This document shows, piece by piece, positions 13,730 to 32,226 of a stretch of DNA of 33,224 nt. Under the pieces are notes generated by a model. The model worked only from the letters and a program-made list of their open reading frames with translations. It ran no database searches and had not been told where the DNA came from. The stretch comes from Asanoa iriomotensis. Its GTDB lineage: Bacteria > Actinomycetota > Actinomycetes > Mycobacteriales > Micromonosporaceae. Made by a program: the position numbers and the translations under genes. How positions within the stretch are numbered: the stretch's first letter is position 1; each line of letters opens with the position of its first letter. Location: assembly GCF_016862515.1 (NCBI RefSeq), contig NZ_BONC01000080.1:1-33224 (forward strand). Direction: 5' to 3'.

Positions 13730-14454
13730 CACTCGGCGACGGCCTTGAACAGCGCCGCGACCTCGGCGTTCGTGAGGCGCCTGGTGCGCCCGGGCTTGAG
13801 GTCGCCGAGCCGGATCGGGCCGATGGCGGTGCGGACCAGCCGGTTGACCGGGTGCCCGACGGCGTCCATCATCCGCCGAACGATCCGGTTGCGGCCCTCG
13901 TGGATCACGATCTCGATCTGCGCGGACCGGGCGAACGCGTCGACGAGCCGGAACTTGTCGACCTTGGCCAGGCCGTCCTCCAGCTCGACGCCGGCCTGGA
14001 GCTGCCGGCCGACCGACCGGGGCAGGGGCCCGGGAATCTCCAGCACGTAGGTCTTCGGCACCCCGTACGAGGGATGCATGAGCTTGTGCGCCAGCGACCC
14101 GTCGTTGGTCAGCAGCAGCAGTCCCTCGGAGTCGGTGTCGAGCCGCCCGACGTGGTAGACCCGCTGGTCGACCCGGTCGAGGAACTCGGCGAGCGCGGTG
14201 CGCCCCTTCTCGTCGGCCATCGTCGAGACGACACCGCGAGGCTTGTTGAAGGCGAGGTAGACCAGATTCTGGTCGACGATCACCCGCTGCCCGTCGACGT
14301 AGATCTCCGCGGTGTCCGCGTCGACCTTGTCACCGAGCTGGGCGACCTTGCCGTCGACCTTGACCCGGCCACGGAAGATCAGATCCTCACAGGCCCGTCG
14401 GGACCCCACACCGGCGCTGGCCAGCACCTTCTGCAGGCGCTCAGCGTTCGCCAT
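13729..14454 (-). CDS. rluB: 23S rRNA pseudouridine synthase, RluB/RsuA family
   Basis: The 241-residue enzyme starts with an S4 RNA-binding domain (LQKVLASAGVGSRRACEDLI, then RVKVDG). It continues with the RsuA-type catalytic domain. The catalytic aspartate is in GRLDTDSEGLLLLTNDG, and YLAFNKPRGVV and EGRNRIVRRM are further family blocks. It converts a uridine in 23S rRNA to pseudouridine. ATG 14454 is preferred because GAGG lies six bases upstream; ATG 14472 would add six residues. The start lies inside the end of scpB (14-base overlap), so the genes are coupled. Assignment to RluB rather than RsuA or RluE rests on the scpAB-rluB-cmk neighbourhood. Confidence 0.93.
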   Translation of the reverse strand: MANAERLQKVLASAGVGSRRACEDLIFRGRVKVDGKVAQLGDKVDADTAEIYVDGQRVIVDQNLVYLAFNKPRGVVSTMADEKGRTALAEFLDRVDQRVYHVGRLDTDSEGLLLLTNDGSLAHKLMHPSYGVPKTYVLEIPGPLPRSVGRQLQAGVELEDGLAKVDKFRLVDAFARSAQIEIVIHEGRNRIVRRMMDAVGHPVNRLVRTAIGPIRLGDLKPGRTRRLTNAEVAALFKAVAE

Positions 14455-15721
14455 CTGCCACCTCGTCGACATCGTCCGGAAGGAACGGCGCCAGGTCCGG
14501 GAGCTGGTCGACAGAGTCGAGCCCGAGCTTCTCCAGGAACAGCGTCGTCGTCCGGTAAAGGTACGCGCCCGTCTCCGGCTCCGTGCCGGCCTCCTCGATC
14601 AGCCCGCGGGACGTGAGGGTGCGCACCACGCCGTCGCAGTTCACGCCGCGGATCGCGGAGATCCGGCCACGGGTGACCGGCTGCTTGTAAGCGATCACCG
14701 CGAGCGTCTCCAGCGCCGCCTGGGTGAGCCGGACCGACTGCCCGTCGAGCACGAACCGCTCGACGTAGGCGGCGTACTGCGGCCGGGTGTAGAGCCGCCA
14801 CCCACCGGCGATGCGCCGCAACTCGAACCCGTGCCCGGCGCTGGTGTAGCCGGCCGAGATCGTTTCCAGAGCCGCCGCCACCCGATCGGTCGGCTGCTCC
14901 AGGATCTGCGCCAGCACGATGTCCTGCACGGGCTCGTCGACGACGAGCAGGATCGCTTCGAGCGCACCGCGCAGCTCATCGTCATCGACAAGACCCAACG
15001 CCGCGGCTGGTTCCGGTTGATCGGCGGCAACCATGGGTCGCGCATCCTCATCGGATACGCGCGACGGAGCGGGAACGGCAACCTCGGTCGCGCTGCCGTC
15101 CTGGGCGGCCTCCCCGGTCCCGGGATCGGCCTCCTGCGCAAGATCAACCAACACGCTGTCCGGCGGCGCCGCATCGGCAACACCCTCGGGCTCCAGCTCC
15201 TCCGGCGCGCCGTCGTCCTCGACCTCGCCGACCGCCTCGTCCGCCTGGACGGTATCGGCTTCGACCGCTAGCCCAGGCTCGACCACCGACTCAGGCTCAA
15301 CCACCGACTCGGGCTCGACCACCGGCTCAGGCTCGACCACCGACTCGGGCTCGACCGCCAGCTCAGGCTCGACCGCCAGCTCAGGCTCAACCGCCAGCTC
15401 AGGCTCAACCGCCAGCTCAGGCTCAACCGCCGACTCAGGCTCGACCGCCGACTCGGGTTCGACCGCCGACTCGGGCTCGGCTGGTCCGTCGGACTCCGGG
15501 GAGGGGGTGTGCTCGCCCTGCGGCTCGGCGTCCGCGATGCGCTCATCGCTCGCCGGCTCCGCGGCCTGCTCGCCCTCCGAGGTCGGCTTGTTGTTCGGCT
15601 CCGAATATTTCGACGCCGAACGTTCTTGGGATCGGGCGCGGTCCCACGGGGGCACCCAGGCCGCGGCCTGTTCCGCCAGGGACGACTCGCGGCCCGGGTC
15701 GGCGCCGCTGCGCTCGCTCAC
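14441..15721 (-). CDS. scpB: Segregation and condensation protein ScpB with a long repetitive N-terminal extension
   Basis: ScpB is the kleisin-associated winged-helix subunit of the SMC condensin. Its conserved part starts near residue 245 (LVDDDELRGALEAILLVVDEPV) and includes LTQAALETLAVIAYKQPVTR and RGLIEEAG. Usual ScpB is about 170-230 residues; this one has 426. The first ~240 residues are acidic, proline-rich and low complexity. They contain twelve tandem hexapeptides of the type S/L-A/V-V-E-P-E, encoded by 18-bp repeats at 15261-15476. The region is very likely disordered. The GTG start overlaps the scpA stop (GTGA, 15718-15721). A shorter start within the extension is possible, but the reading frame stays open and codon bias is coding-like. 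Confidence 0.93.
   Translation of the reverse strand: MSERSGADPGRESSLAEQAAAWVPPWDRARSQERSASKYSEPNNKPTSEGEQAAEPASDERIADAEPQGEHTPSPESDGPAEPESAVEPESAVEPESAVEPELAVEPELAVEPELAVEPELAVEPESVVEPEPVVEPESVVEPESVVEPGLAVEADTVQADEAVGEVEDDGAPEELEPEGVADAAPPDSVLVDLAQEADPGTGEAAQDGSATEVAVPAPSRVSDEDARPMVAADQPEPAAALGLVDDDELRGALEAILLVVDEPVQDIVLAQILEQPTDRVAAALETISAGYTSAGHGFELRRIAGGWRLYTRPQYAAYVERFVLDGQSVRLTQAALETLAVIAYKQPVTRGRISAIRGVNCDGVVRTLTSRGLIEEAGTEPETGAYLYRTTTLFLEKLGLDSVDQLPDLAPFLPDDVDEVADGER
15261..15476. repeat. 18-bp minisatellite, 12 tandem units, inside scpB
   Basis: Twelve consecutive 18-bp units follow one another without gaps. On the plus strand a typical unit is TCGACCGCCGACTCAGGC. Neighbouring units differ at one to four positions, and four central ones are nearly identical, which indicates recent slippage or unequal exchange. 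The period is a multiple of three, so the frame is kept. On the coding strand the units encode a glutamate/proline hexapeptide. Confidence 0.95.
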
Positions 15722-16932
15722 TGCTTCTGCTCCTCGGGTTCATCGGCCGCGGGCACGTCGGCCGCCGCCGCGTCATCGGTGGCGGGTTCATCGACTGCGG
15801 CTGGTCCGTAGGCCGCAGGTTCGCCGGCCGCCGCTCCATCGGTGGCGGGTTCAACGGCCGCGCCAGGTCCGTGGGCCGCAGGTTCGCCGGCCGCCGCTCC
15901 ATCGGTGGCGGGTTCAACGGCCGCGGCGGCGTCGAAGGCCGCGGGTTCGCCGGCCGCTTCATCGGTGGCGGGTCCATCGGCTGCGGCAGCTTCTGAGGCT
16001 GCGGGTTTGTCGGCGGCCTCGGCCGGGGTGCCGGCGTACTCGTCGACCTTCAGCTCGCCCACCGCGTCGCCGCCGGTCCAGCGGACCGTCAGTTCGCCCA
16101 GGGCCTGTACCTGTTCGAAGCCCACCAGGTTCTCGCGGTAGAGCTCCAGAAGCGCCAGGAAGCGCGCCACGACCTCGAGCGTGCTCTGGCAGTCGATCGT
16201 CAGCACCTGGAACGTCGCCGTGCCGGAGCGGCGGATTCGATCCCGCAGGATGATCGCGTGCTCGCGGACGCTGACCTTCACGTCGTGGATGTGCGCGATC
16301 GACACCATCTGCGCCATCGTCGGCTTGGGTGTCATGGCCTTGATCGCGAGCTTCAGCAGCCGCGCGGGCCCGATGCCGAGGACCAACTCGGGCAGCGCCT
16401 CCGCGTACCGCGGCTCCAGCGAGACCGCCCGCGGATAGCGCCGGGCGCCCTCCACCTCGAGCCGCTGGATGTGCGCGGCCGCCTCCTTGAACGCCTTGTA
16501 TTGCAGCAGCCGGGCGAACAGCAGGTCGCGCGCCTCAAGGAGGGCGAGATCCTCTTCGTTCTCCACCGACGCCGCCGGCAGCAGCCGGGCCGCCTTGAGG
16601 TCGAGCAGCGTGGCCGCGACGACCAGGAACTCGCTGGCCTCGTCGAGCGGCCAGTCGTCGCCCATCGCCCGGATGTACGCGATGAACTCGTCGGTGACCG
16701 TGCTCAGCGCGACCTCGGTCACGTCGAGCTTGTGCTTGCCGATCAGCGTGAGCAGCAGGTCGAACGGCCCGGTGAAGTTGGCCAGCCGCACGGTGAACCC
16801 GGTCGCGGGCGCCGCGTCGGTCGTCAGTGCGTCGGCGGGCACCGACCCTTCGACGACGACGGCGGACGCTTCGGCCGCATCGGGTTCACTCACCGTTCGA
16901 CCGTAGTCCACCGCCGGAACGGCGACGTTCAC
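15718..16932 (-). CDS. scpA: Segregation and condensation protein ScpA (kleisin) with a repetitive C-terminal tail
   Basis: ScpA is the kleisin that bridges the SMC heads and recruits ScpB. FTGPFDLLLTLIGKHKLDVTEVALSTVTDEFI (about 52-83) and the following EASEFLVVAATLLDLKAARLLP are the family N-terminal signature. The C-terminal winged-helix block (VVARFLALLELYRENLVGFEQ) ends near residue 285. The remaining ~120 residues are an Ala/Glu/Pro-rich tail built from 21-residue repeats, so the protein (404 residues) is far longer than the usual 250-280. GTG 16932 is chosen because GAGGT lies six bases upstream; GTG 16938 and GTG 16893 are alternatives. It overlaps scpB by four bases. In relatives it follows parA directly; here a TnpB element intervenes 70 bp upstream. 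Confidence 0.93.
   Translation of the reverse strand: MNVAVPAVDYGRTVSEPDAAEASAVVVEGSVPADALTTDAAPATGFTVRLANFTGPFDLLLTLIGKHKLDVTEVALSTVTDEFIAYIRAMGDDWPLDEASEFLVVAATLLDLKAARLLPAASVENEEDLALLEARDLLFARLLQYKAFKEAAAHIQRLEVEGARRYPRAVSLEPRYAEALPELVLGIGPARLLKLAIKAMTPKPTMAQMVSIAHIHDVKVSVREHAIILRDRIRRSGTATFQVLTIDCQSTLEVVARFLALLELYRENLVGFEQVQALGELTVRWTGGDAVGELKVDEYAGTPAEAADKPAASEAAAADGPATDEAAGEPAAFDAAAAVEPATDGAAAGEPAAHGPGAAVEPATDGAAAGEPAAYGPAAVDEPATDDAAAADVPAADEPEEQKQ
15778..16023. repeat. 63/60-bp tandem repeats inside the scpA tail
   Basis: Units at 15778-15840 (63 bp), 15841-15903 (63 bp) and 15904-15963 (60 bp) are clearly homologous. A diverged fourth copy follows to about 16023. Each starts GGTGGCGGGT on the plus strand and shares the block GTTCGCCGGCCGC. 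They encode a 20-21-residue repeat with the core EPATD and AAAGEPAA on the coding strand. All lengths are multiples of three. Confidence 0.9.
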
Positions 16933-16950
16933 GCCCACACCTCATGCACC

Positions 16951-17120
16951 TTGACTCCCTCCCCTCACCCGAAGGTGGCGGATTCCCGCGGCTGGGACGA
17001 GTTCACGCCACTAGCCGTTCGGGCGGTTGACGCTTCACAGGCCGCCCAACGGCAGGGCCTCCACGTCCGGTCACGACCAGCCCGGCCGCGAGAATGTTCT
17101 TGGCCGCGTTCACATCCGCG
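16951..17120 (-). ncRNA. Candidate omega RNA (reRNA) at the 3' end of tnpB
   Basis: TnpB proteins use a guide RNA transcribed from the 3' end of their own gene through the right end of the element. Past the stop codon (17003) the minus strand forms two contiguous small hairpins, GCGG-GAAT-CCGC (16978-16989) and CACC-TTCG-GGTG (16966-16977, a UUCG tetraloop). A G-rich linker and TCAA (16951-16954) follow. TCAA is the right-end cleavage motif of IS608-like elements. If the element ends there, the guide would start at 16950 and read into the scpA ribosome-binding site. The 5' boundary given is nominal. Confidence 0.35.
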
Positions 17121-18220
17121 TTGTCCGCATGCCCGCATGCGACACACACGAAGACCGCTTGGCTCTTGCGGTTCTCCGTGGCTACATGGCCACACGAGTT
17201 GCAGGTCTGCGAAGTGAACGCCGAGTTGACCTTGACGACGGCGGCGCCGTGGCGGCGCGCCGCGTGTTCGAGAGCTAATAGGAATCCGCCCCACCCCTTG
17301 TCCAGGATGGCGCGGTTGAGGCCAGCTTTCTGTCGCACGCCACGCCCCGGCGCGTCGACGGTGCCTTTCGCGCTAGCCGTCAAGTTCTTCACCCGGAGGT
17401 CTTCCACAGCGATTAGTCCGAAGGACCGGGCAAGCCGGTTAGCGATCTGCGCGGCGAAATCGGTCCGCCGGAATCGGATACGCGCGTTCAGTCGGGTCAA
17501 CTCGGCCCTGAGGGCGTCGCGGCGCTTCGACCACCGGGTGCGTCCGTGGGTCCGCAGGGACCGGGATAGCCGCTGCTGGATACGGCGCAGCCTGCTTCGC
17601 TCGCCTGGCGTTGCGAACCGCATGTCGTAGAGGTCGCCATCAGAGGTGGCCAGCGCCACTGCCACACCGCGGTCAACACCAACTGGTCGCAGGCCGTTGG
17701 GCGCGACTTCGCTGACACCGTCCTCGACGCAGAACGAGATGTACCAGCGTCCGGCCTGCCGACCGACGGTGGCGTTGCGGACCGTGCCGCCGATTGGGCG
17801 GGTCCAGCGAAACCGCACCCATCCGAGCTTCGGCAGCTTTGCCCGCCCCCACCGACGATTCAGCCGTTCGACCTTTATTTGGTTCGGATCAGGGAACCGG
17901 AACGATGGCTGTGTCTTGGCCTTGGAGCGCCAGTGTACGTTCCACGTGCCGTGGGTCTTGCACGCCTTCTCCAAGTCACGCAGCGTCTGTTGGAGGATGT
18001 GCGATGGAGCCTCGGCAAGCCAACCGCAGTCGGGGTCCTTCTTCGCCGCCGCCATCTGCCGAGACTGCTCGTTGTAGTTGATCCACGCTCCCCTGGTGCG
18101 GTACCGCCGCCGCTGCTCCAACGCCGTGTTCCACACCGCACGACAAATCGCGCCATATCGTTCGGCTTTGTCCGTCTGTTCTGGCGCTAGCGCGAGCAGG
18201 TAGCGACGACCAACCAGCAT
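17003..18220 (-). CDS. tnpB: TnpB, RNA-guided endonuclease of an IS200/IS605-type element
   Basis: This 405-residue protein is a full-length TnpB. The N-terminal half (about 1-170) is the RNA-binding WED/REC-like region. The RuvC catalytic triad is intact: D183 in GVDRGV, E273 in AVEDLRVKNL and D369 in NADVNAAKN. A zinc finger has C340-x2-C343 and C359-x2-C362 (TCNSCGH, CVACGH). This separates it from nuclease-dead TnpB-derived regulators. Known members cleave DNA beside a short TAM, guided by an RNA from their own 3' end, and help the element persist after excision. ATG 18220 has AGGAGG eight bases upstream; a longer in-frame start at 18259 lacks one. The gene lies in the same orientation as the parA-scpAB operon and may be carried on its transcript. 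Confidence 0.93.
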   Translation of the reverse strand: MLVGRRYLLALAPEQTDKAERYGAICRAVWNTALEQRRRYRTRGAWINYNEQSRQMAAAKKDPDCGWLAEAPSHILQQTLRDLEKACKTHGTWNVHWRSKAKTQPSFRFPDPNQIKVERLNRRWGRAKLPKLGWVRFRWTRPIGGTVRNATVGRQAGRWYISFCVEDGVSEVAPNGLRPVGVDRGVAVALATSDGDLYDMRFATPGERSRLRRIQQRLSRSLRTHGRTRWSKRRDALRAELTRLNARIRFRRTDFAAQIANRLARSFGLIAVEDLRVKNLTASAKGTVDAPGRGVRQKAGLNRAILDKGWGGFLLALEHAARRHGAAVVKVNSAFTSQTCNSCGHVATENRKSQAVFVCVACGHADNADVNAAKNILAAGLVVTGRGGPAVGRPVKRQPPERLVA

Positions 18221-18277
18221 CGTTCCGCCTCCTGCCGATCGTCGTGGAGCACCCGCCAAGTGCGACCGATGTTTCGA

Positions 18278-19207
18278 TCACCGCTCCGCTTGCGCGGCGA
18301 TGACCTCTCGGGCTAGCTGACGGTAGTTGCGGGCTCCGGACGAGGCCGGGTCGAGCGTGGTGATCGGCGCACCGGCCACCGTCGACTCGGGGAACTTCAC
18401 CGTCTTGGTGATCACGGTCTGGTAGACCTTGTCGCCGAACGCCTCGACCACCCGCTGGAGCACCTGGCGGCAGTGGGTGGTGCGGCTGTCGTACATGGTC
18501 GCCAGGATGCCTTCGAGCTCGAGGTCGAAGTTGAGCCGCTCGCGCACCTTGTCGATGGTGTCGAGCAGCAGCGCCACGCCGCGCAGGCTGAAGAACTCGC
18601 ACTCCAGCGGGATCAGCACGCCGTGTGCGACGGTCAGCGCGTTGATCGCCAGCAGGCCGAGCGACGGCTGGCAGTCGATCAGGATGTAGTCGTATTCCTT
18701 GCGCACGGACCGCAGCACGCGGGCCAACGCCATCTCGCGGGCGACCTCGTTGACGAGCTGGATCTCGGCGGCCGACAGGTCGATGTTGGCGGGCAGCAGG
18801 TGCAGCCCCGCGACGTCGGTCTTGATCAGCACGTCTTCGGCGGTCACGTCGTCCTGCATCAGCAGGTTGTAGACGGACAGGTCGAGGTTGTGCGGGTTGA
18901 CGCCGAGGCCGACGGAGAGCGCGCCCTGCGGGTCGAAGTCGACGAGCAGCACGCGGCGGCCGTATTCGGCGAGCGCCGCGCCCAGGTTGATGGTCGACGT
19001 GGTCTTGCCGACGCCGCCCTTCTGGTTGGCCAGCGCGATGATCCGGGCCGGACCGTGCCGGTCGGCCGGCATCGGCTCGGGGATCGGCTTGCGCATCGTG
19101 TAGGCCGCCGGGTCGGCGGGCCCGAGCTCGGCGCCGAGGTCGAGCGCGGACTGCTGCTCGCGGAGCTGCGAGGTCCATGCCTCGGCACGGTCACCGTTGC
19201 CAGCCAT
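18278..19207 (-). CDS. parA: ParA-family chromosome segregation ATPase (scpAB-linked)
   Basis: The 309-residue protein has a deviant Walker A motif, KGGVGKTT (63-70), the switch motif LLVDFDPQGAL from D90, and IDCQPSLGLLAINAL as Walker B. It is a ParA/Soj-type ATPase that dimerises with ATP and binds DNA nonspecifically. The ~50-residue N-terminal extension before the ATPase core is usual for the copy located beside scpAB. This copy differs from the origin-proximal parAB. ATG 19207 has AGGGA just upstream. A promoter with a 16-bp palindrome in its spacer lies at 19286-19309. The gene ends 57 bp before the TnpB gene that separates it from scpA. Confidence 0.93.
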   Translation of the reverse strand: MAGNGDRAEAWTSQLREQQSALDLGAELGPADPAAYTMRKPIPEPMPADRHGPARIIALANQKGGVGKTTSTINLGAALAEYGRRVLLVDFDPQGALSVGLGVNPHNLDLSVYNLLMQDDVTAEDVLIKTDVAGLHLLPANIDLSAAEIQLVNEVAREMALARVLRSVRKEYDYILIDCQPSLGLLAINALTVAHGVLIPLECEFFSLRGVALLLDTIDKVRERLNFDLELEGILATMYDSRTTHCRQVLQRVVEAFGDKVYQTVITKTVKFPESTVAGAPITTLDPASSGARNYRQLAREVIAAQAER

Positions 19208-19285
19208 GTCCCTGCCTACCCCCTCCCGACGTACGTCCCGCGCCGGAGCCCCGACTGTACGCCACGTCCCACCGGCCCCGGGTGC

Positions 19286-19309
19286 ACCATATCGGCGTGT
19301 CGACACGCC
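19286..19309 (-). promoter_or_regulatory. parA promoter with a 16-bp palindromic operator
   Basis: On the minus strand TATGGT (19286-19291) is a good -10 box about 80 bases upstream of the parA ATG. Two bases upstream of it the perfect palindrome GGCGTGTCGACACGCC (19294-19309) fills the spacer where a -35/-10 linker would be. A protein bound there would block the polymerase. The -35 element (TTCTTG) is weak. It does not match the parS consensus. Confidence 0.55.
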
Positions 19310-21578: not shown

Positions 21579-23986
<2,408 letters not shown>

Positions 23987-26158
23987 TCACGCCGCGCCGA
24001 CACCCTTGGCGACCTCGGGCTCCGCGTCCGGGGTCGCCTCCGGGGTCGTCTCCGGCGCTGTCGGCCGGGTGAAGTCGCTCGCGTGGTTGAGCACCCGCAG
24101 GGCGGTCAGGGCCGCCATCGGCACCGCCACCGCCGCGGCCGCGCCGGCCAACTCCAGGCCCGTGCCGCCGAGCACGCCGCCGAGCAGCACGGCGACGCCG
24201 ATGCCGACCGCGCCGGCCCGGATCGCCGGATAGAGCCCGTACGCCCGGCGCAGCCCACCCCAGTGCCGCAGGAGCACCAGCCAGAGCAGGGCGGCACCGA
24301 CCAGCGCCAGCAGCGTCAGCGGGCTGTTGGCCAGCGCGTCGAAGCTGGCTTTGCTGGTGCGCTGCAGCGTGGTGCCGCCGGTGCCGTCGCCGAGCGCGGA
24401 CACGAACCGGCCCAGGCTGCCCCGCTCGGCCTCGGGCCGGCGGGTCTCGATCCAGGCGAAAACCGCGGTCACCGCGACACCGGCCACCGAGGCGCCGGCC
24501 AGCCGGCCGAGCGTGAGCCAGCCGCCGGTGCTCAGCGCCGTGGCGATGCACACACCGGCGGTCAGGGCCACCGCGCCGATCGGGTCGGCGCCGAGATAGG
24601 GGCTGCCGACCAGGAAGATGCCCAGCCCGCCGATCAGCACGACCACGAGCGGCCGCCACGAGCGGGCGAAGCGCTGGGCGAGCGCGCCGGCGCCGAGCAG
24701 GACACCGGTGACGAACACCCCCAGACCGACGGTGCCGACGCCCGCGTACCGGTTGTCCTCCAGCACCGAGTAGCCGGCCACGCCGTTGAGCTGCAGCCGC
24801 GCGCCGGTCATCAGGTCGACGCCGACCACCACCGCGGCCACCGTGACCACCATCGCCAGCGGGCCTAGGGTGTGCCGGAAGGCCGGCGCGAACCGGACCA
24901 CGGTGGTCCCGACGGCCAGCACGAAGGCCATCACCGCGGCGAACAGCCAGCCGGGCTGGCCGCCCCGCCACCAGGGGACGAGGTCGGCGACCAGGGCGGC
25001 GGGTATCGCCAGCGCGGCGGCGACCAGCAGGACCTCCACCGTGTCGCTGATCGGCTTGCGGACGGGCTCGTGGTCGTCGCCGGCGTGCCGGCGCGCCCGC
25101 CGCAACAGCGGCACCACGGCCACCGCCAGCACCAACTGCACCACGGCGAGGATGCCGAAGAACCAGGTCGCGACGCTGCGCTGGGCGCCAGCCTCGCGGT
25201 CGGCGTCGGCCGGGAAGGTCACCGCGTCGGGCAGCTTCTCGGGCCGGCCCGGGACCGAGGTCGCCGGTTGGCCGACGAACAGCCGCTCGGGGCGGGGGCG
25301 GTTGAGCGCGAGGAGCGCGGTCGGCGCCAGGTCGACGAGCTGGACGTAGCCGTCCCGACCGGTGCTGGGCGAGGTGAGCCAGCCGCCTTCCCAGCCCGGC
25401 CCGTCGGCGATCGCCACGTGCAGCCGGCTCGACTGGTCGGTGTCGGCCAGGCCCGCGACCAGCACCAGCGACCGGTCGGGGCGGGCGGCGAGCACCCGGG
25501 CCAGCGTGGCGTCGGCCCGCGCGGCGGCGGTCGCCCGCACAGCGGGGTCGTCGCCGCTGACGGTGCCGAGGTCGACCATGCTGAGGATGCACCGGCTGAG
25601 CAGCTGCCCGGGGTTCGCGGGCAGCTCGGGCTCGTAGTTGTCGACGCGCCCGTAGGGCCGCGCCGCGGCGACGGCCGCACCGGGCCCGATCGCCGAGGTG
25701 CAGCGCACCGACTGCGGCAGCGCGCCGGGCACCGCGCCCCAGGTCAGGGACTCGTTGTAGGCCACGGCCTGCCGGTCGAGGTCGGGCAGGAACGCGCCGA
25801 TGCCGTCGGGGCGCTGCACGTCAACGGACAGCGGCGGGCAGCCGTCGGTGACCGCGGTGGAGCGCCGCCAACCGGCGTAGTTGCCCGCGCCCAGGGTCAG
25901 CCACCCGTCGACGGGGCAGGTCGGCTTGAGCGCCGAGCGCACCGACAACGAGCCGATCGAGCCGCGCTCGGCCAGCCGCCACAGGTTGGGCGTGCCCTGC
26001 TCGGTGACGTCGTCCCAGCGCAGCCCCGGGATGCCCACCACGACCACGTAGTCGGCGGAGCGCCTGGTCTCCGCGGTGGCCGGCCGGATCGACAGGGCGG
26101 CCAGGCCGCCGGCCAGGGTCAGGACCACGAGGAGGTACGGGGTGAGCCGGCGGATCAT
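23987..26158 (-). CDS. Multi-pass membrane protein with an alkaline-phosphatase-superfamily-like ectodomain
   Basis: This 723-residue protein has an N-terminal signal anchor (about 7-28), then an extracytoplasmic domain to about 330. After that come about 10 membrane helices and a Glu/Pro-rich C-tail. The ectodomain reads VVVVGIPGLRWDD, then QGTPNLWRLAERGSIGSL, and later GYVQLVDLAPTALLAL. That is the layout of alkaline-phosphatase/phosphodiesterase-fold enzymes. The usual first metal ligand (Asp in 'G-x-D-G') is replaced by proline (GIPG), so it may not be a working hydrolase. The ATG overlaps the stop of the GT4 glycosyltransferase by four bases, tying it to envelope glycan work. A similar gene beside pyrG occurs in other actinomycetes, to my knowledge uncharacterised. 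Confidence 0.75.
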   Translation of the reverse strand: MIRRLTPYLLVVLTLAGGLAALSIRPATAETRRSADYVVVVGIPGLRWDDVTEQGTPNLWRLAERGSIGSLSVRSALKPTCPVDGWLTLGAGNYAGWRRSTAVTDGCPPLSVDVQRPDGIGAFLPDLDRQAVAYNESLTWGAVPGALPQSVRCTSAIGPGAAVAAARPYGRVDNYEPELPANPGQLLSRCILSMVDLGTVSGDDPAVRATAAARADATLARVLAARPDRSLVLVAGLADTDQSSRLHVAIADGPGWEGGWLTSPSTGRDGYVQLVDLAPTALLALNRPRPERLFVGQPATSVPGRPEKLPDAVTFPADADREAGAQRSVATWFFGILAVVQLVLAVAVVPLLRRARRHAGDDHEPVRKPISDTVEVLLVAAALAIPAALVADLVPWWRGGQPGWLFAAVMAFVLAVGTTVVRFAPAFRHTLGPLAMVVTVAAVVVGVDLMTGARLQLNGVAGYSVLEDNRYAGVGTVGLGVFVTGVLLGAGALAQRFARSWRPLVVVLIGGLGIFLVGSPYLGADPIGAVALTAGVCIATALSTGGWLTLGRLAGASVAGVAVTAVFAWIETRRPEAERGSLGRFVSALGDGTGGTTLQRTSKASFDALANSPLTLLALVGAALLWLVLLRHWGGLRRAYGLYPAIRAGAVGIGVAVLLGGVLGGTGLELAGAAAAVAVPMAALTALRVLNHASDFTRPTAPETTPEATPDAEPEVAKGVGAA

Positions 26159-27270
26159 GTCGGCGCTAGCTCCGCGTAGATCGCCTCGAGCTGGGCGACC
26201 GTGGCCTCCTCGGTCGGCCAGGTCTTGGCACGCTGGAGGCCCCGCGCCCGGTATTCGGCGCGCTTCGCCTCGTCGCCCAACAGCTCCCGGACCGCTTCCG
26301 CCACGGCCGCGACGTTACCGGGTGGCACCAGCACCGCGGCGTCCCCGACCAGGTCGGGCAGCCCGCCGACGGCGGTCGCGACCAGCGGGACGCCGGCCCG
26401 CAGCGCCTCCTGCGCGAACAGCTGCCGGGCCTCCCAGTCGCTGGTGACCACGGCCACGTCGGCGGCCTCCAGCAGGTCGGCGACGTCGCCGCGGTGGCCG
26501 AGCAGGGTGACCGGCGCGTGCTCCGAGGAGATCAACGCGGCCAGCGGCAGGTAGGCGGGGCCGGAGCCGGCGACCAGCACGGCGGGCATGGGCTGGAGGT
26601 CGCGCCACGTCGCGGCGGCCTCGACGAGCACGTCGTAGCGCTTCTGCGGGTGCAGCCGGCCGACCGAGAGCACCACGGGCTGGTCGCGGTGCAGGCCGAA
26701 CTCGGCGCGGACCGCGGCCCGGCCCCGGCGGGGCTCGGGCAGCTCGGGCGCGGCGACGGGGGCGAGCCGGGCGTCGCGGGCGCCGAGCGCGCGGGCCCGG
26801 TCGACGAGGTCCTCGGAGGCGCCGAGGCAGACGGTGGCGTTGCGGGCCACCACCCGCTCGGCGAACCGGGACGCGTAGCCCCGCAGCCGCCGGGCCAGCA
26901 CCGCGTTGTGCCAGGTGACCACGACCGGCTGGCGCGGCTTGGCGAGCACGGCGACCAGCCCGGCGCGCAGACCGTGCGCGTGCACGACGTCGACGTCGTC
27001 GGCCAGGGCCGCGCGCAGGGCGCCGATCGCCCGGCGGTCGTTGAGCGTCGGGTTGGCGGGGATCTCGACCGGGACGAACCGGGCGGCGCCGGCGGCGGTG
27101 AAGTGGAACTGGGTCTCGGTGGCGGCCGGGCCGGCGACGGTCACGGTGGCGCCGCCCGCGCTCAGCCCGCGGACGAGCGAGGTGACGTGCTGGCCCACGC
27201 CGCCGGTGCTGGAGGCCAGCACGAGGCAGACGGCACCGGTCCACCGGTGCCCCCGGTCGGCGTCGGTCAC
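26155..27270 (-). CDS. GT4-type glycosyltransferase (GT-B fold)
   Basis: The 371-residue cytosolic enzyme has an N-terminal acceptor domain with STGGVGQHVTSLVRGL and VDVVHAHGLRAGLVA. Its C-terminal donor domain has SVGRLHPQKRYDVLVEA, the EX7E-type motif EARQLFAQEAL, and GVPLVATAVGGLPDLV. This is the GT4 retaining-transferase pattern; the donor is unknown. GTG 27270 is chosen because the Shine-Dalgarno GGGAGGG is too close to the in-frame GTG at 27279. The gene is first in a unit running through the alkaline-phosphatase-like membrane protein towards pyrG. A 184-bp region with a palindrome and direct repeats separates it from the MurJ-like gene. Confidence 0.88.
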   Translation of the reverse strand: MTDADRGHRWTGAVCLVLASSTGGVGQHVTSLVRGLSAGGATVTVAGPAATETQFHFTAAGAARFVPVEIPANPTLNDRRAIGALRAALADDVDVVHAHGLRAGLVAVLAKPRQPVVVTWHNAVLARRLRGYASRFAERVVARNATVCLGASEDLVDRARALGARDARLAPVAAPELPEPRRGRAAVRAEFGLHRDQPVVLSVGRLHPQKRYDVLVEAAATWRDLQPMPAVLVAGSGPAYLPLAALISSEHAPVTLLGHRGDVADLLEAADVAVVTSDWEARQLFAQEALRAGVPLVATAVGGLPDLVGDAAVLVPPGNVAAVAEAVRELLGDEAKRAEYRARGLQRAKTWPTEEATVAQLEAIYAELAPT

Positions 27271-27454
27271 GCCACCCACTCCCTCCCCCGTGCGACCCGG
27301 CGCGCCCCAGGTCGTGCGGCGATGCTATCGGGACGTCGGCCGCCACCGGTGCTGATAAAGCGGGTCCGACCCGTTCACTGTCAGTCTTCGGTCATTCGTA
27401 CGCAGCCCGCCGTTCATTGTCGGTGATGCCCTCCGCCGGGTACGACGTGGACCC
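27271..27454 (-). promoter_or_regulatory. Intergenic promoter region with palindrome and direct repeats
   Basis: This is the only sizeable gap in the envelope cassette and holds no gene. It contains the palindrome CGGGTC-C-GACCCG (27361-27373) and two near-identical 14-mers, CGTTCACTGTCAGT (27372-27385) and CGTTCATTGTCGGT (27411-27424). A looser third copy lies near 27389. On the minus strand CTGACA overlaps the first repeat as a possible -35 element, with CTTTAT 18 bases on as a poor -10. It is lower in GC than its surroundings, as promoters here are. A promoter for the GT4-pyrG unit is likely; the exact boxes are uncertain. Confidence 0.5.
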
Positions 27455-29083
27455 TCAACCGGCCGCCCGGCGGCCCAGGCGGCGGCGGATCGCGGCGGCC
27501 GCCGGGCGCACGTCATGGCGGTCCAGCGGGTACGCGACCGCCGCGAACACCAGCACCACCACGATGCCGGCGACGACGCCGTGCCAGAGCGCGGCCGGCT
27601 TGCCGGCCGTGGTGCCGCCGCTGAGCGCGTCGGCCACCGCCCAGCCGGCGAACGCCGCCGCGGCGCCCGCGGTCAGGCCGACCAGCAGCGCCCGGCCGAA
27701 GCCGGCCAGCGCGGCGCCGCCGGCCCGCCGGTGCACGGCCAGGACGAGCAGCGCGCCGAGCACCAGCATGCCGACCGAGTTGGCCAGGGTCAGCGCCAGG
27801 AGGCGGCGGTCGGTGGCCAGGCCGCCGGCGAGCACCACGGCGGCCACGGCGACCGTCGCCCAGCCGATCGCGGTCGCGACGGCGGCGGGGCGGGGCAGGC
27901 CGCGGGCGTAGAGGGCGCGGGTCAGGATGGCGAACAGGCCATACCCGATCAGGCCCGGCGCGAACCCGGCGACCGCGCCGCCGAGGCCGGCCAGCGCGAA
28001 GAAGCCGGCGACCGGCTCGGCGACCGCGAACAGGGCGGCGGCGCCGAGGCAGCTCAGCAGCAGCACACCGCGGGTGGCGGGGGCGAGCCGCGCCTGGTAG
28101 CCCGCGTGGTCGCCGGTGCTGTGCGCGGTGGCCAGCGCCGGGTAGACGGCCGTCGCCACCGGCACCGCCAGGATCGCCCAGGGCAGCAGGTAGACCGCCT
28201 GGGCCACGGTGAACACCACCGCCGTGCCGTCCGGCACCTCATTGGCCAGCCGCAGTGTGACTACGACCGCGACCTGCTGCAGGCCGACCGTGACCACACC
28301 GGCACCGGCCAGGCGCAGCGCGTGCCGGCCCGCGCCGTCCGGGAACCGCCACGTCGGGCGCAGCCGCAGGCCGAGGCCGCGGACCGGGATGACCAGGCAG
28401 AGCGAGAGCACGACGACGCCGAGCGTGGTGCCGACGGCGAGGATGAGCTGGCCGCCGGCGCCGACACCGGGCACGTCGGCCCGGACGCCCTCGACGGCCG
28501 CGAACAGGCCGTACGTCGCGGCGACCACCACGCTGGACAGCAGCGGCGCGAGCACCGGCCAGGCGAACCGGTGGCGGGCCTGCAGCACGCCGGTCAGCAC
28601 GATGCCGACTCCGTACAGGGGTAGCTGCGGTGCGAAGATCCGCAGCATCAGCACGCCCGCGTCGCGCGCGGACGCCGGCAGGTCGCCGGCGAGGCCGTCG
28701 ATGATCGGACCGGCCAGCAGGGCGACCACGACCGCGAGCGGCACGAGCGCCGACAGGGTCCAGGTGAGCAGCGCGGCGACGGTGCCGGCCTCGGCGCGCC
28801 GGTCGCCGCCCGCGACCGCGCCCGCCAGCAGCGGCACCACCAGCGCGGCGAGCGCGCCGCCCGCGACGATCTCGAAGATGATGTTGGGTACGTAGTTGGC
28901 GGTGACGTAGGCGCTGCCGAGCAGCGTCGATCCGACGAGCCAGCCGAGCACCGCGGTGCGCCCGAAGCCGGCGATCCGGCTCAGCACCGTGAGCCCGCCG
29001 ATCAGGCCCGCCGACCGCGCGACGCGCGGGGCGACCACCGGCGGGGGGACGGTGGTGCTGCTGGGAGGGGTGGACACGCTCAC
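27455..29083 (-). CDS. MurJ/MviN-like lipid-linked glycan flippase
   Basis: This 542-residue protein has about 14 membrane helices. It begins with the MviN signature: ARSAGLIGGLTVLSRIAGFG followed by YVTANYVPNIIFEIVAGGAL. It belongs to the MOP flippase superfamily, whose MurJ branch moves lipid II to the outer face. ILRIFAPQLPLYG-like and GFFALAG blocks (LMLRIFAPQLPLYGVG, GFFALAGLGG) follow family positions. Actinomycetes usually carry another mviN near the replication origin, so this may be a paralogue devoted to a different lipid-linked sugar. It starts 4 bases after the MraY/WecA-like gene. GTG 29083 lacks a clear ribosome site; GTG 29077 is two codons shorter. Confidence 0.9.
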   Translation of the reverse strand: MSVSTPPSSTTVPPPVVAPRVARSAGLIGGLTVLSRIAGFGRTAVLGWLVGSTLLGSAYVTANYVPNIIFEIVAGGALAALVVPLLAGAVAGGDRRAEAGTVAALLTWTLSALVPLAVVVALLAGPIIDGLAGDLPASARDAGVLMLRIFAPQLPLYGVGIVLTGVLQARHRFAWPVLAPLLSSVVVAATYGLFAAVEGVRADVPGVGAGGQLILAVGTTLGVVVLSLCLVIPVRGLGLRLRPTWRFPDGAGRHALRLAGAGVVTVGLQQVAVVVTLRLANEVPDGTAVVFTVAQAVYLLPWAILAVPVATAVYPALATAHSTGDHAGYQARLAPATRGVLLLSCLGAAALFAVAEPVAGFFALAGLGGAVAGFAPGLIGYGLFAILTRALYARGLPRPAAVATAIGWATVAVAAVVLAGGLATDRRLLALTLANSVGMLVLGALLVLAVHRRAGGAALAGFGRALLVGLTAGAAAAFAGWAVADALSGGTTAGKPAALWHGVVAGIVVVLVFAAVAYPLDRHDVRPAAAAIRRRLGRRAAG

Positions 29084-29087
29084 GTCG

Positions 29088-29921
29088 TCAGGGGCGCCGT
29101 CCGAGCGCGTCCAACTCGCGCAGCCCCGGCGTCTGCTGGATGACCTGGGTGAAGCTGACCCGCTCGCTGGCCGCGGTGAGGCCCGCCAGCCCGGCGAGCA
29201 GCGCGGCCCGCCCGACCCGGCCGGTGCGGGCGGCCAGTGCGACGCCGAGCAGCGCGCCGAACGCGTTGGCGCCGGCGTCGCCGAGCATGACCCGCTCGTC
29301 GAGGTCGTCGGGTAGGAGGGCCGTGGCGGCGCCGACCGGGCCGGCGACCAGCCCGCCCGCGGGCCCGGCGGCCAGCGGACCCGCGACGATGGTGCCGGCC
29401 TTGATCGCCCGGCCGGGGCGCAGGTCGAGCAGGTTGAACAGGTTGGCCGTGCCGGCGATCACGCCGGCGCCGAGGGCGACGTCGACGGCGGTGCCCACCC
29501 GGCCGCGCCGCGGGCGGTCGGCGGCGAGCAGCGCGCTGGCGGCGAGTGCGGCGGCGCCGACGCCGGCGATCTTGACGAGCCCGCTGGTAACCCGGCCTTC
29601 GCGGAGCGCGCCGAGGTGGCCCTTGAAGCCCTTGGCCTTGTGCTCCGGGCGGCCGCCGACCACGTCGTCGTAGAAGCCGACCGCGCCGGAACCCAGGCCT
29701 GCCACCAGTGCCGCGCCGGCCTCGGGCAGGCTGCGGGCGCCGGCGGCCGCGCTGGTCGCGGCGCCGACCGCGAGCGCCGGGCCGGCGGCCAGCGTGACCG
29801 TGCGGCCCCGGAAGTTGGTGCGGTCGAGTTGGGTCGAGCCGGGCCACGAGCGGATGACCCGCAGCGCGCCCCGCGCCGTCAGCGCGCCGGCGGTGGAGAG
29901 GACGACGTTCTTGATCCTCAT
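29088..29921 (-). CDS. MraY/WecA-like polyprenyl-phosphate sugar-phosphate transferase, divergent
   Basis: The 277-residue membrane protein keeps the main GT4-type phosphotransferase (PNPT) positions. DRTNFRG (33-39) is the first loop, D85-D86 sit in VGFYDDVVG, and N160 and N163 plus D166 are in ANLFNLLDLRPG. D215 is in MLGDAGANAFG. It would attach a sugar-phosphate to undecaprenyl phosphate on the inner membrane face. It is shorter than MraY (about 320-360 residues), the 'DGLDG' block reads LDLRPG, and the histidine-rich loop of MraY is absent. So it is not MraY itself. It overlaps steB by ATGA (29918-29921) and lies 4 bases before the MurJ-like flippase, which makes all three one translational unit. 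Confidence 0.82.
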   Translation of the reverse strand: MRIKNVVLSTAGALTARGALRVIRSWPGSTQLDRTNFRGRTVTLAAGPALAVGAATSAAAGARSLPEAGAALVAGLGSGAVGFYDDVVGGRPEHKAKGFKGHLGALREGRVTSGLVKIAGVGAAALAASALLAADRPRRGRVGTAVDVALGAGVIAGTANLFNLLDLRPGRAIKAGTIVAGPLAAGPAGGLVAGPVGAATALLPDDLDERVMLGDAGANAFGALLGVALAARTGRVGRAALLAGLAGLTAASERVSFTQVIQQTPGLRELDALGRRP

Positions 29922-30865
29922 TGCGGCTGCTGCGGCATCATCGAGGCGGACCCGGCACCCAGGCCGTATTGCCCGGCCTTGCCCTGGCTGACCATCTCGG
30001 CCGTGGCCAGCGCGGTGACCACCTGGCCCTGGGTGGTGTTCGCGTTGTCGACCGTGCTGATCGTCTTGACCAGCGCGCCGTCGCCCCGGACCGCGGCGAC
30101 CACGTTGCCGTCGCTGGCACCGTTGCCGGCCACCACGACCGAGCCCTGCTTGTCGAACTGGCTGACCATGGTCACCACGGCCTGGTCCTTCTGCGCCGAC
30201 TCCTTGTCGACGTACGGCAGGCCGGTGACGATCACCACGGCCTCGGCCGGCTCGGTCACCTTGTCCTTGCCGGCGTCGGCGTAGCTGATGTATTTCGCCT
30301 TCTCGTACGCCGTGAGCAGCGCGGTGATGTCCGCGGCGGCGGGCGGGGTGCCCTGCGTGCGGTCGAGGACCGCGCTGGCCAGCAGGGCGCTCGCCGTCTC
30401 CACGCCGTCGCTGTTGCTCGGGAGCCCGGTCACCGGGATCGACGCCTGCGCCGCCGAGGCGGCCAGGTAGAGCAGCTCCTGGGAGTTCGCCGGCGCGAAG
30501 AACGAGTCCTGCATCTCGATCCGGCCGGTGATCGTCGCGCCGGCCGTGGTCAGCATCGTGCGGACCTGGTCGGCGTGCTCGCGACCGCTCGGCAGGGTGA
30601 CCATCAGAACCTTGCGGCCGGTCAGCCGGCCCGGGAGGACGACCTGCGCCATCTCGGCGGCGAAGTCCTCCTCGCGCTTGACCTCTTCCTGAAGGCTGGA
30701 GACCGAGTCCCGTAGCTGGGTGTTGTCCTTTTTCAGCTCGGAGACACGCTGGTTGAGCGAGTCGGCGACCGGGCCGTTGAGCGCCGCGGTGCCGACGACC
30801 AGCCCGATGGCGAGTGCCAGGAACACCGCGGTGAGTGACACCACGTGGTACCGGAAATTGATCAC
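29918..30865 (-). CDS. steB: SteB/MctB-family membrane protein (division-associated)
   Basis: This 315-residue protein has one N-terminal membrane helix (about 8-29), then a coiled coil (about 32-70, with SELKKDNTQLRDSVSSLQEE). An extracytoplasmic alpha/beta domain with Gly/Ala-rich loops follows. This is the DUF3186/MctB architecture. The M. tuberculosis relative Rv1698 was described as the copper-efflux protein MctB. The Corynebacterium relative SteB forms a cytokinetic ring complex with SteA. Adjacency to steA favours the division role. No channel-like region or metal-rich motif is evident. GTG 30865 has AGAAGG eight bases upstream. The stop overlaps the following transferase gene. Confidence 0.88.
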   Translation of the reverse strand: MINFRYHVVSLTAVFLALAIGLVVGTAALNGPVADSLNQRVSELKKDNTQLRDSVSSLQEEVKREEDFAAEMAQVVLPGRLTGRKVLMVTLPSGREHADQVRTMLTTAGATITGRIEMQDSFFAPANSQELLYLAASAAQASIPVTGLPSNSDGVETASALLASAVLDRTQGTPPAAADITALLTAYEKAKYISYADAGKDKVTEPAEAVVIVTGLPYVDKESAQKDQAVVTMVSQFDKQGSVVVAGNGASDGNVVAAVRGDGALVKTISTVDNANTTQGQVVTALATAEMVSQGKAGQYGLGAGSASMMPQQPQ

Positions 30866-30902: not shown

Positions 30903-32084
30903 CTAGCTGAAGAGCTGTCCCAGTTGGAAGACCAAATTGTTCCACCACTCGGAAAGCACGCCGAGGTAGGCCTTGCCCACGGTGGAGACGGCCACCGCCG
31001 AAGCCATGGCAGAAACGGCGCTGAGCACCAGTAACAGCAACGACGAGCCAGAAATGCTCTGCCGGTAGAGGCGGCTGACGCCCTTGGCGTCGACCACCTT
31101 GCCACCGACCTTGAGGCGGGTGAGGAACGTCGATGCCATTCCGCCGCGCCCCTTGTCGAGGAACTCGACCAAGTTGTTGTGCGTGCCCACCGCGACGATG
31201 AGCGTGGCGCCCTTCTCGTCGGCCAGCAGCATCGCGACGTCTTCGCTGGTCGCGGCGGCCGGGAAGGTCAGGGCGGAGAGTCCGAGCTGGTGCACCCGGG
31301 CCAGGCCCGGAGCGCGCCCGTCGGGATAGGCGTGCACGATCACCTCGGCGCCGCAGCGCAGCACGTCGTCGGTGACGGAGTCCATGTCGCCGATGATCAT
31401 GTCGGGCGTGTAGCCCGCCTCGACCAGCGCGTCGGCGCCGCCGTCGACACCGATCAGGACCGGCTTGAACTCCCGGATGTACGGGCGGAGCACGTCGAGG
31501 TCGTCCTTGTATTCGTAGCCCCGCACCACGATCAGGCAATGACGCCCGGCGATGCTGGTCTCGACCTCGGGGACACCGACGCCGTCGAGCAGGAGGTCGC
31601 GCTCCTGCTTGAGGTATTCCATCGTGTTGGCGGCGAACGCCTCGAGCTGCACCGACAGGCCCTCGCGGGCGTCCGACATCGCCTTGGCGACCGTTTCGGT
31701 GTCCTGCCTGGCCCCGTGCGCGATCGGCTCGCCGCCGACGTACACGGTGTTGCCGTCGATCCGCACCGCGTCGCCCTCGCGGAGCTGCTGGAAGACGCTC
31801 TCCCCCAGGTCGTCGACGAGCGGGATGCCGGCCTTGACCAGCACCTCCGGGCCGAGGTTGGGGTAGCGACCGGAGATGGAGGGCTTGGCGTTGAGCACCG
31901 CGGTGACGCCGACCGCGACGAGCGAGTCGGCGGCCACCCGGTCGAGGTCGACGTGGTCGATGACGGCGACATCGCCCGGGCGCAGTCGACCGACCAGACG
32001 CTTGGTCCGGCGGTCGAGGCGCGCGGTGCCGGTGATTGTGCCCGGTTCGGCGCTCCGGGTCCGGCGCAAGGTGGGTAGACGCAT
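30903..32084 (-). CDS. steA: Cytokinetic ring protein SteA (thiamin-pyrophosphokinase-like)
   Basis: The 393-residue protein has an N-terminal domain containing LRPGDVAVIDHVDLDRV and ARRLNAKPSISGRYPNLG-like sequence (AVLNAKPSISGRYPNLGP). A thiamin-pyrophosphokinase-like core follows, with LIGVDGGADALVEAGYTPD and MIIGDMDSVTDD. A single C-terminal membrane helix (about 352-376) precedes a Trp-containing tail. In Corynebacterium SteA and SteB assemble at the septum and influence cell-wall hydrolase control. The TPK fold is probably used for scaffolding or ligand sensing rather than thiamin metabolism. ATG 32084 has AGGA about nine bases upstream; ATG 32093 is an alternative. It lies 37 bp upstream of steB and 192 bp downstream of recN. 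Confidence 0.92.
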   Translation of the reverse strand: MRLPTLRRTRSAEPGTITGTARLDRRTKRLVGRLRPGDVAVIDHVDLDRVAADSLVAVGVTAVLNAKPSISGRYPNLGPEVLVKAGIPLVDDLGESVFQQLREGDAVRIDGNTVYVGGEPIAHGARQDTETVAKAMSDAREGLSVQLEAFAANTMEYLKQERDLLLDGVGVPEVETSIAGRHCLIVVRGYEYKDDLDVLRPYIREFKPVLIGVDGGADALVEAGYTPDMIIGDMDSVTDDVLRCGAEVIVHAYPDGRAPGLARVHQLGLSALTFPAAATSEDVAMLLADEKGATLIVAVGTHNNLVEFLDKGRGGMASTFLTRLKVGGKVVDAKGVSRLYRQSISGSSLLLLVLSAVSAMASAVAVSTVGKAYLGVLSEWWNNLVFQLGQLFS

Positions 32085-32202
32085 CGTGACCATCCTGGCA
32101 TGTCCGGCGAACGAATTGCGGTCGCGACATGCCTGAGCAGGGGTGCTAGCTGTGGCACGCGAATGACCGACGCGTACGTGCCAGGTCTCAGCGAACCATG
32201 CG

Positions 32203-32226
32203 GACGCCACCCACTGCGGTGGCGCC
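32203..32226 (-). terminator. Putative recN terminator
   Basis: On the minus strand a 9-bp stem (one G-U pair) with a 6-base loop lies about 50 bases past the recN stop, in the 192-bp gap before steA. There is no T tract. It probably separates recN from the steA unit, whose promoter would lie in the remaining ~120 bp; I see no convincing promoter boxes there. Confidence 0.45.

Follow-up and report, generated by a model that had tools for sequence, protein, structure and literature searches.

We analysed a 33,224-nucleotide stretch of DNA from Asanoa iriomotensis (contig NZ_BONC01000080.1; hereafter the window), in which steA and steB are followed by genes for a putative polyprenyl-phosphate (hexosamine?)-1-phosphate transferase (PNPT), a MurJ-like flippase, a GT4 glycosyltransferase and a large membrane protein, and then by pyrG. 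We propose that the genes between steB and pyrG serve a lipid-linked glycan of their own, made by an uncharacterised Wzx/Wzy-type pathway with SteA as a cytoplasmic component, a reading to which we give somewhat better than an even chance. It is supported by the gene set, its conservation, the folds, the catalytic residues and a covariation between PNPT and the pocket of SteA. The RPGR..K block of PNPT, an ectodomain lacking the DH motif joined to a Wzy-like membrane part, and the covariation of the SteA pocket with PNPT are new here.

All of the genes lie on the minus strand and are read in the order steA, steB, PNPT, MurJ-like, GT4, membrane protein and then pyrG. The original prediction, made from this DNA alone, had described steB, a MraY/WecA-like transferase, a MurJ-like flippase, a GT4 enzyme and an ectodomain protein running in one direction, with ATGA overlaps at two junctions. 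The sequence bore out their coordinates and order, and both overlaps were read in the DNA, at 29921-29918 (steB stop and PNPT start) and at 26158-26155 (GT4 stop and membrane-protein start). The intergenic gaps measure 37 bases between steA and steB, 4 between PNPT and MurJ, 175 between MurJ and GT4, and 18 between the membrane protein and pyrG. SteB (29918..30865) matched PF11382, the MctB family (E 1.3e-86).

The gene set recurred across the phylum more than by chance. Among 296 genomes searched, 120 had a steB-type match, and stretches around this gene were taken for 100 of the 119 besides the window's own. The resulting 101 stretches contained steA in 94 cases, PNPT in 79, MurJ in 29, GT4 in 32, the membrane protein in 36 and pyrG in 86. 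PNPT lay between steB and pyrG in 74 of the 86 stretches having both, accompanied by GT2 or GT4 in 64; nothing lay between them in 11, and in one only MurJ and the membrane protein did, with PNPT upstream of steA. The two dominant layouts were GT2-PNPT (33 stretches) and MurJ-GT4-membrane protein-PNPT (13); PNPT stood alone in eight, and the full order PNPT-MurJ-GT4-membrane protein was present in two, the window and a member of its family. Named relatives were taken as the best 80 of 584 found by the PNPT sequence. The window's order is the common one among them: steA-steB-PNPT-MurJ was present in 75 of the 80, and 49 add GT4, one membrane protein and pyrG in order.

Co-occurrence with steAB across Actinobacteria, which the original prediction had singled out for checking, was also seen at the level of whole genomes. 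PNPT was detected in 139 genomes at E 1e-5, and only the 103 with more than 100 bits were counted; the weaker ones may be other PNPT enzymes. With steB counted above the family cut-off (117 genomes; lists compiled by hand), 98 of the 296 genomes, which are related and not independent, carried both genes, that is, 98 of the 103 genomes with PNPT; the other five are the Streptomyces-like genomes of one genus described below. The 19 genomes with steB and no PNPT comprised ten of family f2, which we take to be Mycobacteriaceae, six of family f27, G198, G150 (where a contig end is reached) and G208 (with two weak PNPT fragments). The f27 stretches (L088, L100, L111, L112) had a MctB-family gene and no steA, PNPT or pyrG was found in the fetched stretch; this gene perhaps encodes a different protein.

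The link between the cassette and SteAB goes beyond gene order: the pocket of SteA tracks PNPT. The SteA of the window (30903..32084) has 393 residues from the likely start at 32084, chosen by length, and its open reading frame (ORF) stays open to 32210 (30903-32210). It matched NF040608 with 531.5 bits (cut-off 150). Like the mycobacterial SteA of known structure (PMC12977500), it has a thiamin-pyrophosphokinase-like domain, and the DGGAD, GDMDS, H and SxD residues are intact. PF04263 (TPK_catalytic) gave 34.9 bits vs. a gathering threshold of 30.7, with only 36 residues matched, and the protein stayed below the thiamin pyrophosphokinase equivalog TIGR01378 (43.6 vs. 76.4 bits).

Ten pocket residues were scored. 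Nine or ten were kept in all of the 76 SteA proteins from stretches with PNPT, while SteA from 11 genomes without PNPT (ten of family f2 and one of family f7) kept three to five. Seven more stretches without PNPT kept all ten residues; in five of them PNPT lies outside the fetched stretch, in one it is in two weak pieces, and one is at a contig edge. When further proteins were scored after the residues had been chosen, 19 of 20 PNPT-negative SteA kept one to eight residues; the exception (G362) kept ten and, where PNPT would be expected, shows a weak PNPT-like fragment. These 20 and the former 11 are 31 of the approximately 51 genomes with SteA and without PNPT in a class-level set of 236 genomes, in which SteA was present in 133 and PNPT in 93 (11 of these belonging to family f4 and lacking SteA). 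The PNPT cut-off was E 1e-20 in this set, and when ten of these genomes were searched again at E 0.001, five had weak matches (best 6.7e-8), G362 among them. In the named PNPT loci, full-length SteA kept all ten residues in 74 of 75 cases and eight in the other, one named SteA (L182) being too short to score. TPK_catalytic scores followed the same contrast, with 29.3-35.1 bits in seven SteA with the cassette (one under the cut-off of 30.7) vs. at most 18.0 bits or no match in five without it. On a SteA tree built with the pocket columns removed, 104 rows had both PNPT and the pocket, 30 had neither and one was mixed; at least nine of the ten residues were present in 104 of the 105 labelled rows with PNPT and in none of the 30 without it. 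The tree used 23 chosen loci of the 76 named loci with SteA, left L054 and L336 unlabelled, and counted PNPT as present for L051, L070, L071, L080, L087 and L131, where it lies outside the fetched stretch.

Several observations weigh against a SteAB-linked pathway. The ten pocket residues were marked only after the lineage contrast had been seen. The absence of PNPT needs only two changes on the SteA tree, therefore the covariation rests on two independent pairs, and a sign test cannot reach significance. The taxonomic codes suggest more losses, as f2 belongs to the taxonomic order of the window, where family f1 (Micromonosporaceae by its nearest named relatives) has the cassette, and the kinship of f7 and f73 goes no further than the class; with relaxed SteA, long-branch attraction could mask such losses. 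MurJ and the membrane protein were present in 23 and 29 of the 86 stretches respectively, so both are often not at the locus. Five Streptomyces-like genomes of one genus (g8 of family f4, which we take to be Streptomyces; L215-L219) keep PNPT and GT4 with no SteA or SteB found, and no MurJ was found at these loci either. SteA was found in none of the eight genomes of this group, all candidates having been scored; the absence of steB in f4 is weaker, because only 7 of 14-26 first-look candidates were scored. A tlyA-like gene lies upstream of the f4 PNPT-GT4 pair, and in the two loci that were read a RecN-like ORF immediately precedes PNPT (the tlyA, recN, nudix, ParA and ParB names in the fetched loci are our own reading). 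Finally, the region is syntenic anyway, with tlyA-like and nudix-like genes and pyrG also kept, and because this synteny is general, adjacency alone is weak evidence. As a separate observation at L215-L219, four of the five PNPT matches leave approximately the last 20 residues of the family model uncovered.

A first alternative is that two independent modules share an old, stable neighbourhood without any functional link, SteAB controlling a wall hydrolase and the glycan genes making a general wall or surface polymer. Such an arrangement would accommodate the synteny of the whole region, the Streptomyces-like genomes that keep PNPT-GT4 in the same neighbourhood without a detected SteA or SteB, and the families f2 (probably Mycobacteriaceae) and f7, which keep SteA, and SteB where it was read, without PNPT. 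Against it stand the decay of the SteA pocket residues and the drop in TPK_catalytic scores where PNPT is absent, and the genome-wide coupling of steB and PNPT. We consider it unlikely, though a serious competitor.

PNPT (29088..29921; 277 residues) has the fold of the MraY/WecA/DPAGT1 superfamily. In an alignment of 55 rows D85, D86, N163, D166, G214 and D215 are invariant and aligned to MraY, in positions that we take to be the catalytic Asp pair and the N..N..D and LGD motifs of the superfamily; H102, K117, R171 and K174 are invariant too. The enzyme differs from MraY, WecA and DPAGT1 in being shorter and in having LRPGR..K for DGLDG (NxxNLLDxRPGRxxK replacing NxxNLxDGLDGL); the catalytic Asp residues are kept. 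The original prediction was right that the DGLDG block is missing: NLLDLRPGRAIK occupies its place. It had also described the histidine loop of MraY as lacking; H102 is the sole invariant His in the 55 relatives, so no conserved loop was seen. The standard domain model PF00953 often misses this PNPT group. No match was obtained for 27 of the 55 members even at E 1, the best reached 2.5e-8, and the copy of the window is under the cut-off (12.5 bits, cut-off 27).

GT4 (26155..27279) matched PF00534 (E 1.1e-27), and among solved structures it comes closest to group 1 (GT4-like) glycosyltransferases (best E 1.3e-16). Three copies of the GT2 that occurs at the loci in other lineages were scanned, and all are PF00535 enzymes. 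One copy was compared to NCBIfam, where the best match was AglJ (97.7 bits, cut-off 325) and other polyprenyl-phosphate sugar transferases were listed, all below their cut-offs.

The membrane protein (23987..26158) combines an ectodomain at approximately residues 34-304 with a multi-helix domain resembling those of Wzy polymerases and O-antigen ligases. The ectodomain had been predicted to be alkaline-phosphatase-like. This held for the fold, which a structure search with the predicted model (predicted template modelling score, pTM, 0.83) placed in the alkaline phosphatase superfamily, and did not hold for the metal site: the DH motif was found in 0 of 29 aligned relatives. The first-strand Asp was present in 10 of the 29 rows and Pro in 15, including the window; we take the DH metal motif and this Asp to be marks of the superfamily. 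An active phosphatase was rejected as the DH motif is wanting, and the ectodomain is therefore probably not a phosphatase.

Conserved motifs in the membrane part are GYSPIxAGRFxGxGN (consensus), THLGR and NDSG, and R470 and R600 were kept in 29 of 29 relatives and in 54 of 57 named relatives. A profile-profile comparison of the R..G..N region with proteins of the Wzy_C model gave 80.7% (E 1.3e-5 over 80 columns), an earlier, badly framed Wzy set having given 21.6%. In the same test, the positive control of SEDS against Wzy, two related families, gave 77.9%, and SEDS, MurJ and PNPT gave at most 2.1%; usable frames, picked by hydrophobicity, came from 26 of 30 Wzy and 23 of 30 SEDS loci. Judged by these profiles, the membrane part may be of the Wzy polymerase or O-antigen ligase type. 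Kinship with SEDS proteins (RodA/FtsW) had been considered, with RodA at Foldseek ranks 47 and 50 (E 0.16-0.17), but was not adopted because the profile comparison gave 2.1%. No solved Wzy or ligase was among the 50 best rows of two structure searches, which is no evidence either way because the ectodomain fills the lists. Other points count against the assignment. The 29 members matched 12 Pfam families at E ≤1, none of them Wzy_C, and the window has T, S and G at N476, H581 and D665, which are kept in 26-27 of the 29 relatives and each in 19 of the 57 named ones. Relatives of the membrane protein also occur away from steB (L220-L254), 11 of these loci being beside ParA/ParB-like genes.

The nature of the glycosyltransferase and of the membrane protein bears on a second alternative, in which proteins or a glycolipid, and not a wall polymer, would receive the lipid-linked sugar. 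The single GT2 scanned against NCBIfam is nearest to AglJ, although below its cut-off, whereas a Wzy/ligase-like membrane protein suits a polymerase or ligase, although it might equally be a protein O-ligase with this fold. We regard this alternative as improbable.

The MurJ-like flippase of the multidrug/oligosaccharidyl-lipid/polysaccharide (MOP) superfamily (27455..29083) reached 177.8 bits on PF03023 and stayed below the curated cut-off of the MurJ equivalog TIGR01695 (176.7 vs. 235.55 bits), and it is divergent from the true MurJ of the genome, which is encoded elsewhere (278.9 bits). Two MraY are also encoded elsewhere (283.3 and 275.3 bits, cut-off 192.05), and the MraY gene of the dcw cluster has FtsI-like, FtsW-like, murE, murF, murG and murC neighbours. 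The window's PNPT is not in this location and had no NCBIfam match, TIGR00445 (MraY) included. The only PF00953 matches in the genome are the two MraY, which may leave the cassette enzyme as its sole PNPT of another kind. The second MraY gene (L255:9105-10208, minus strand, contig C43 of the same genome; 275.3 bits) has four scanned neighbouring ORFs that are not cell-wall genes. PNPT and the flippase resemble MraY in fold and MurJ in sequence respectively, but the chance that they are simply the lipid II genes of this genome is negligible, as both stay below the cut-offs and the dcw mraY, a second MraY and a true MurJ lie elsewhere. The original prediction, which held the product to be probably something other than lipid II, thus withstood the comparison with the true mraY and mviN, and the gene order in close relatives is not random.

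The proposed glycan pathway is read as Wzx/Wzy-like because the set has a transferase for initiation, a glycosyltransferase for extension, a flippase and a polymerase/ligase-like enzyme. PNPT would load undecaprenyl phosphate with a sugar-1-phosphate. The lipid-linked sugar would be extended by GT4, or by GT2 in other lineages, and the MurJ-like protein would flip the product. The Wzy/ligase-like membrane protein would then polymerise the glycan or move it to a wall or surface acceptor, its phosphatase-fold ectodomain perhaps acting as a binding domain. A nucleotide or nucleotide-sugar from this pathway may be bound or turned over by SteA, whose state SteB would relay across the membrane; in Corynebacterium and Mycobacterium, the hydrolase RipA would receive it. 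This chemistry, the product, the septal site and the direction of signalling are inferred. The original prediction that the product would be built and exported at the division site draws on work on SteAB in Corynebacterium (PMC6705760). In this genus, steAB is not known to be accompanied by the glycan genes.

The retention of the pocket alongside PNPT points to a role for SteA in handling a nucleotide or a pathway precursor. According to PMC12977500, carbohydrate binding is predicted for the pocket of both solved SteA, and CgSteA is stabilised by GDP or UDP, MtSteA being inconclusive in the same stability test. Where the sugar genes are missing, SteA is usually without the likely active-site residues, which suggests that the SteAB complex originally served the sugar pathway; the SteAB-RipA switch would then be a cassette-less derivative of a glycan-linked system. 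A stronger version, which we hold only tentatively and think rather doubtful, is that SteA is, or ancestrally was, a pyrophosphokinase- or sialyltransferase-like enzyme, which with the noncanonical RPGR..K PNPT builds a glycan licensing septum splitting, the mycobacterial SteAB-RipA being a fossil regulator left after loss of the glycan genes.

The right-hand border of the locus is pyrG (CTP synthase; 22178..23968; NF003792, 847.9 bits), which is not claimed as a member of the cassette. It is followed by genes for alanine dehydrogenase and a XerD-like recombinase. After xerD, on the same strand at 14441-19306, lie a ParA-family gene, scpA and scpB, so a chromosome-segregation block adjoins the locus.

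A literature search, mostly outside subscription journals, found no published description of the cassette. Roughly one in three of the sampled genomes of the phylum (103 of 296, PNPT above 100 bits) would, on this reading, make an uncharacterised lipid-linked glycan, and their PNPT group is often missed by PF00953. It also offers a reason for the nucleotide pocket of SteA: the glycan genes that accompany an intact pocket are the place to look for its substrate. These genes thereby bear on the ligand of mycobacterial SteA (Rv1697), a protein that according to PMC12977500 is essential in vitro.

In Corynebacterium and Mycobacterium, regulation of RipA has been ascribed to SteAB (PMC6705760, PMC12977500). 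SteB is described as a single-pass membrane protein in Corynebacterium (PMC6705760), and one study reports it as dispensable for mycobacterial cell separation (PMC12338722). The RipA-activating SteA-SteB pair of these genera has the same two genes in the same order as the window, and its two solved SteA chains lack several of the marked pocket residues in the alignments. Presumably, steAB of Corynebacterium and Mycobacterium has no adjoining glycan genes and is followed directly by pyrG, which fits family f2. A GT2 and a transferase may also lie beside steAB in Clostridia. In that group, steAB is reported directly after spo0A (PMC12977500). MglA of Kitasatospora, a MurG-like protein, is likewise an extra wall-precursor paralogue in actinobacteria (PMC8092295); it differs in being a relative of MurG, and the available text of that source names no PNPT or SteAB neighbourhood. 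With Wzx/Wzy pathways, the cassette shares an initiating PNPT, a glycosyltransferase, a MOP-family flippase and a putatively Wzy/ligase-like membrane protein. It departs from them in its MurJ-like flippase, in the fusion of its Wzy-like domain to a phosphatase-fold ectodomain that lacks the DH motif, and in its link to a division complex.

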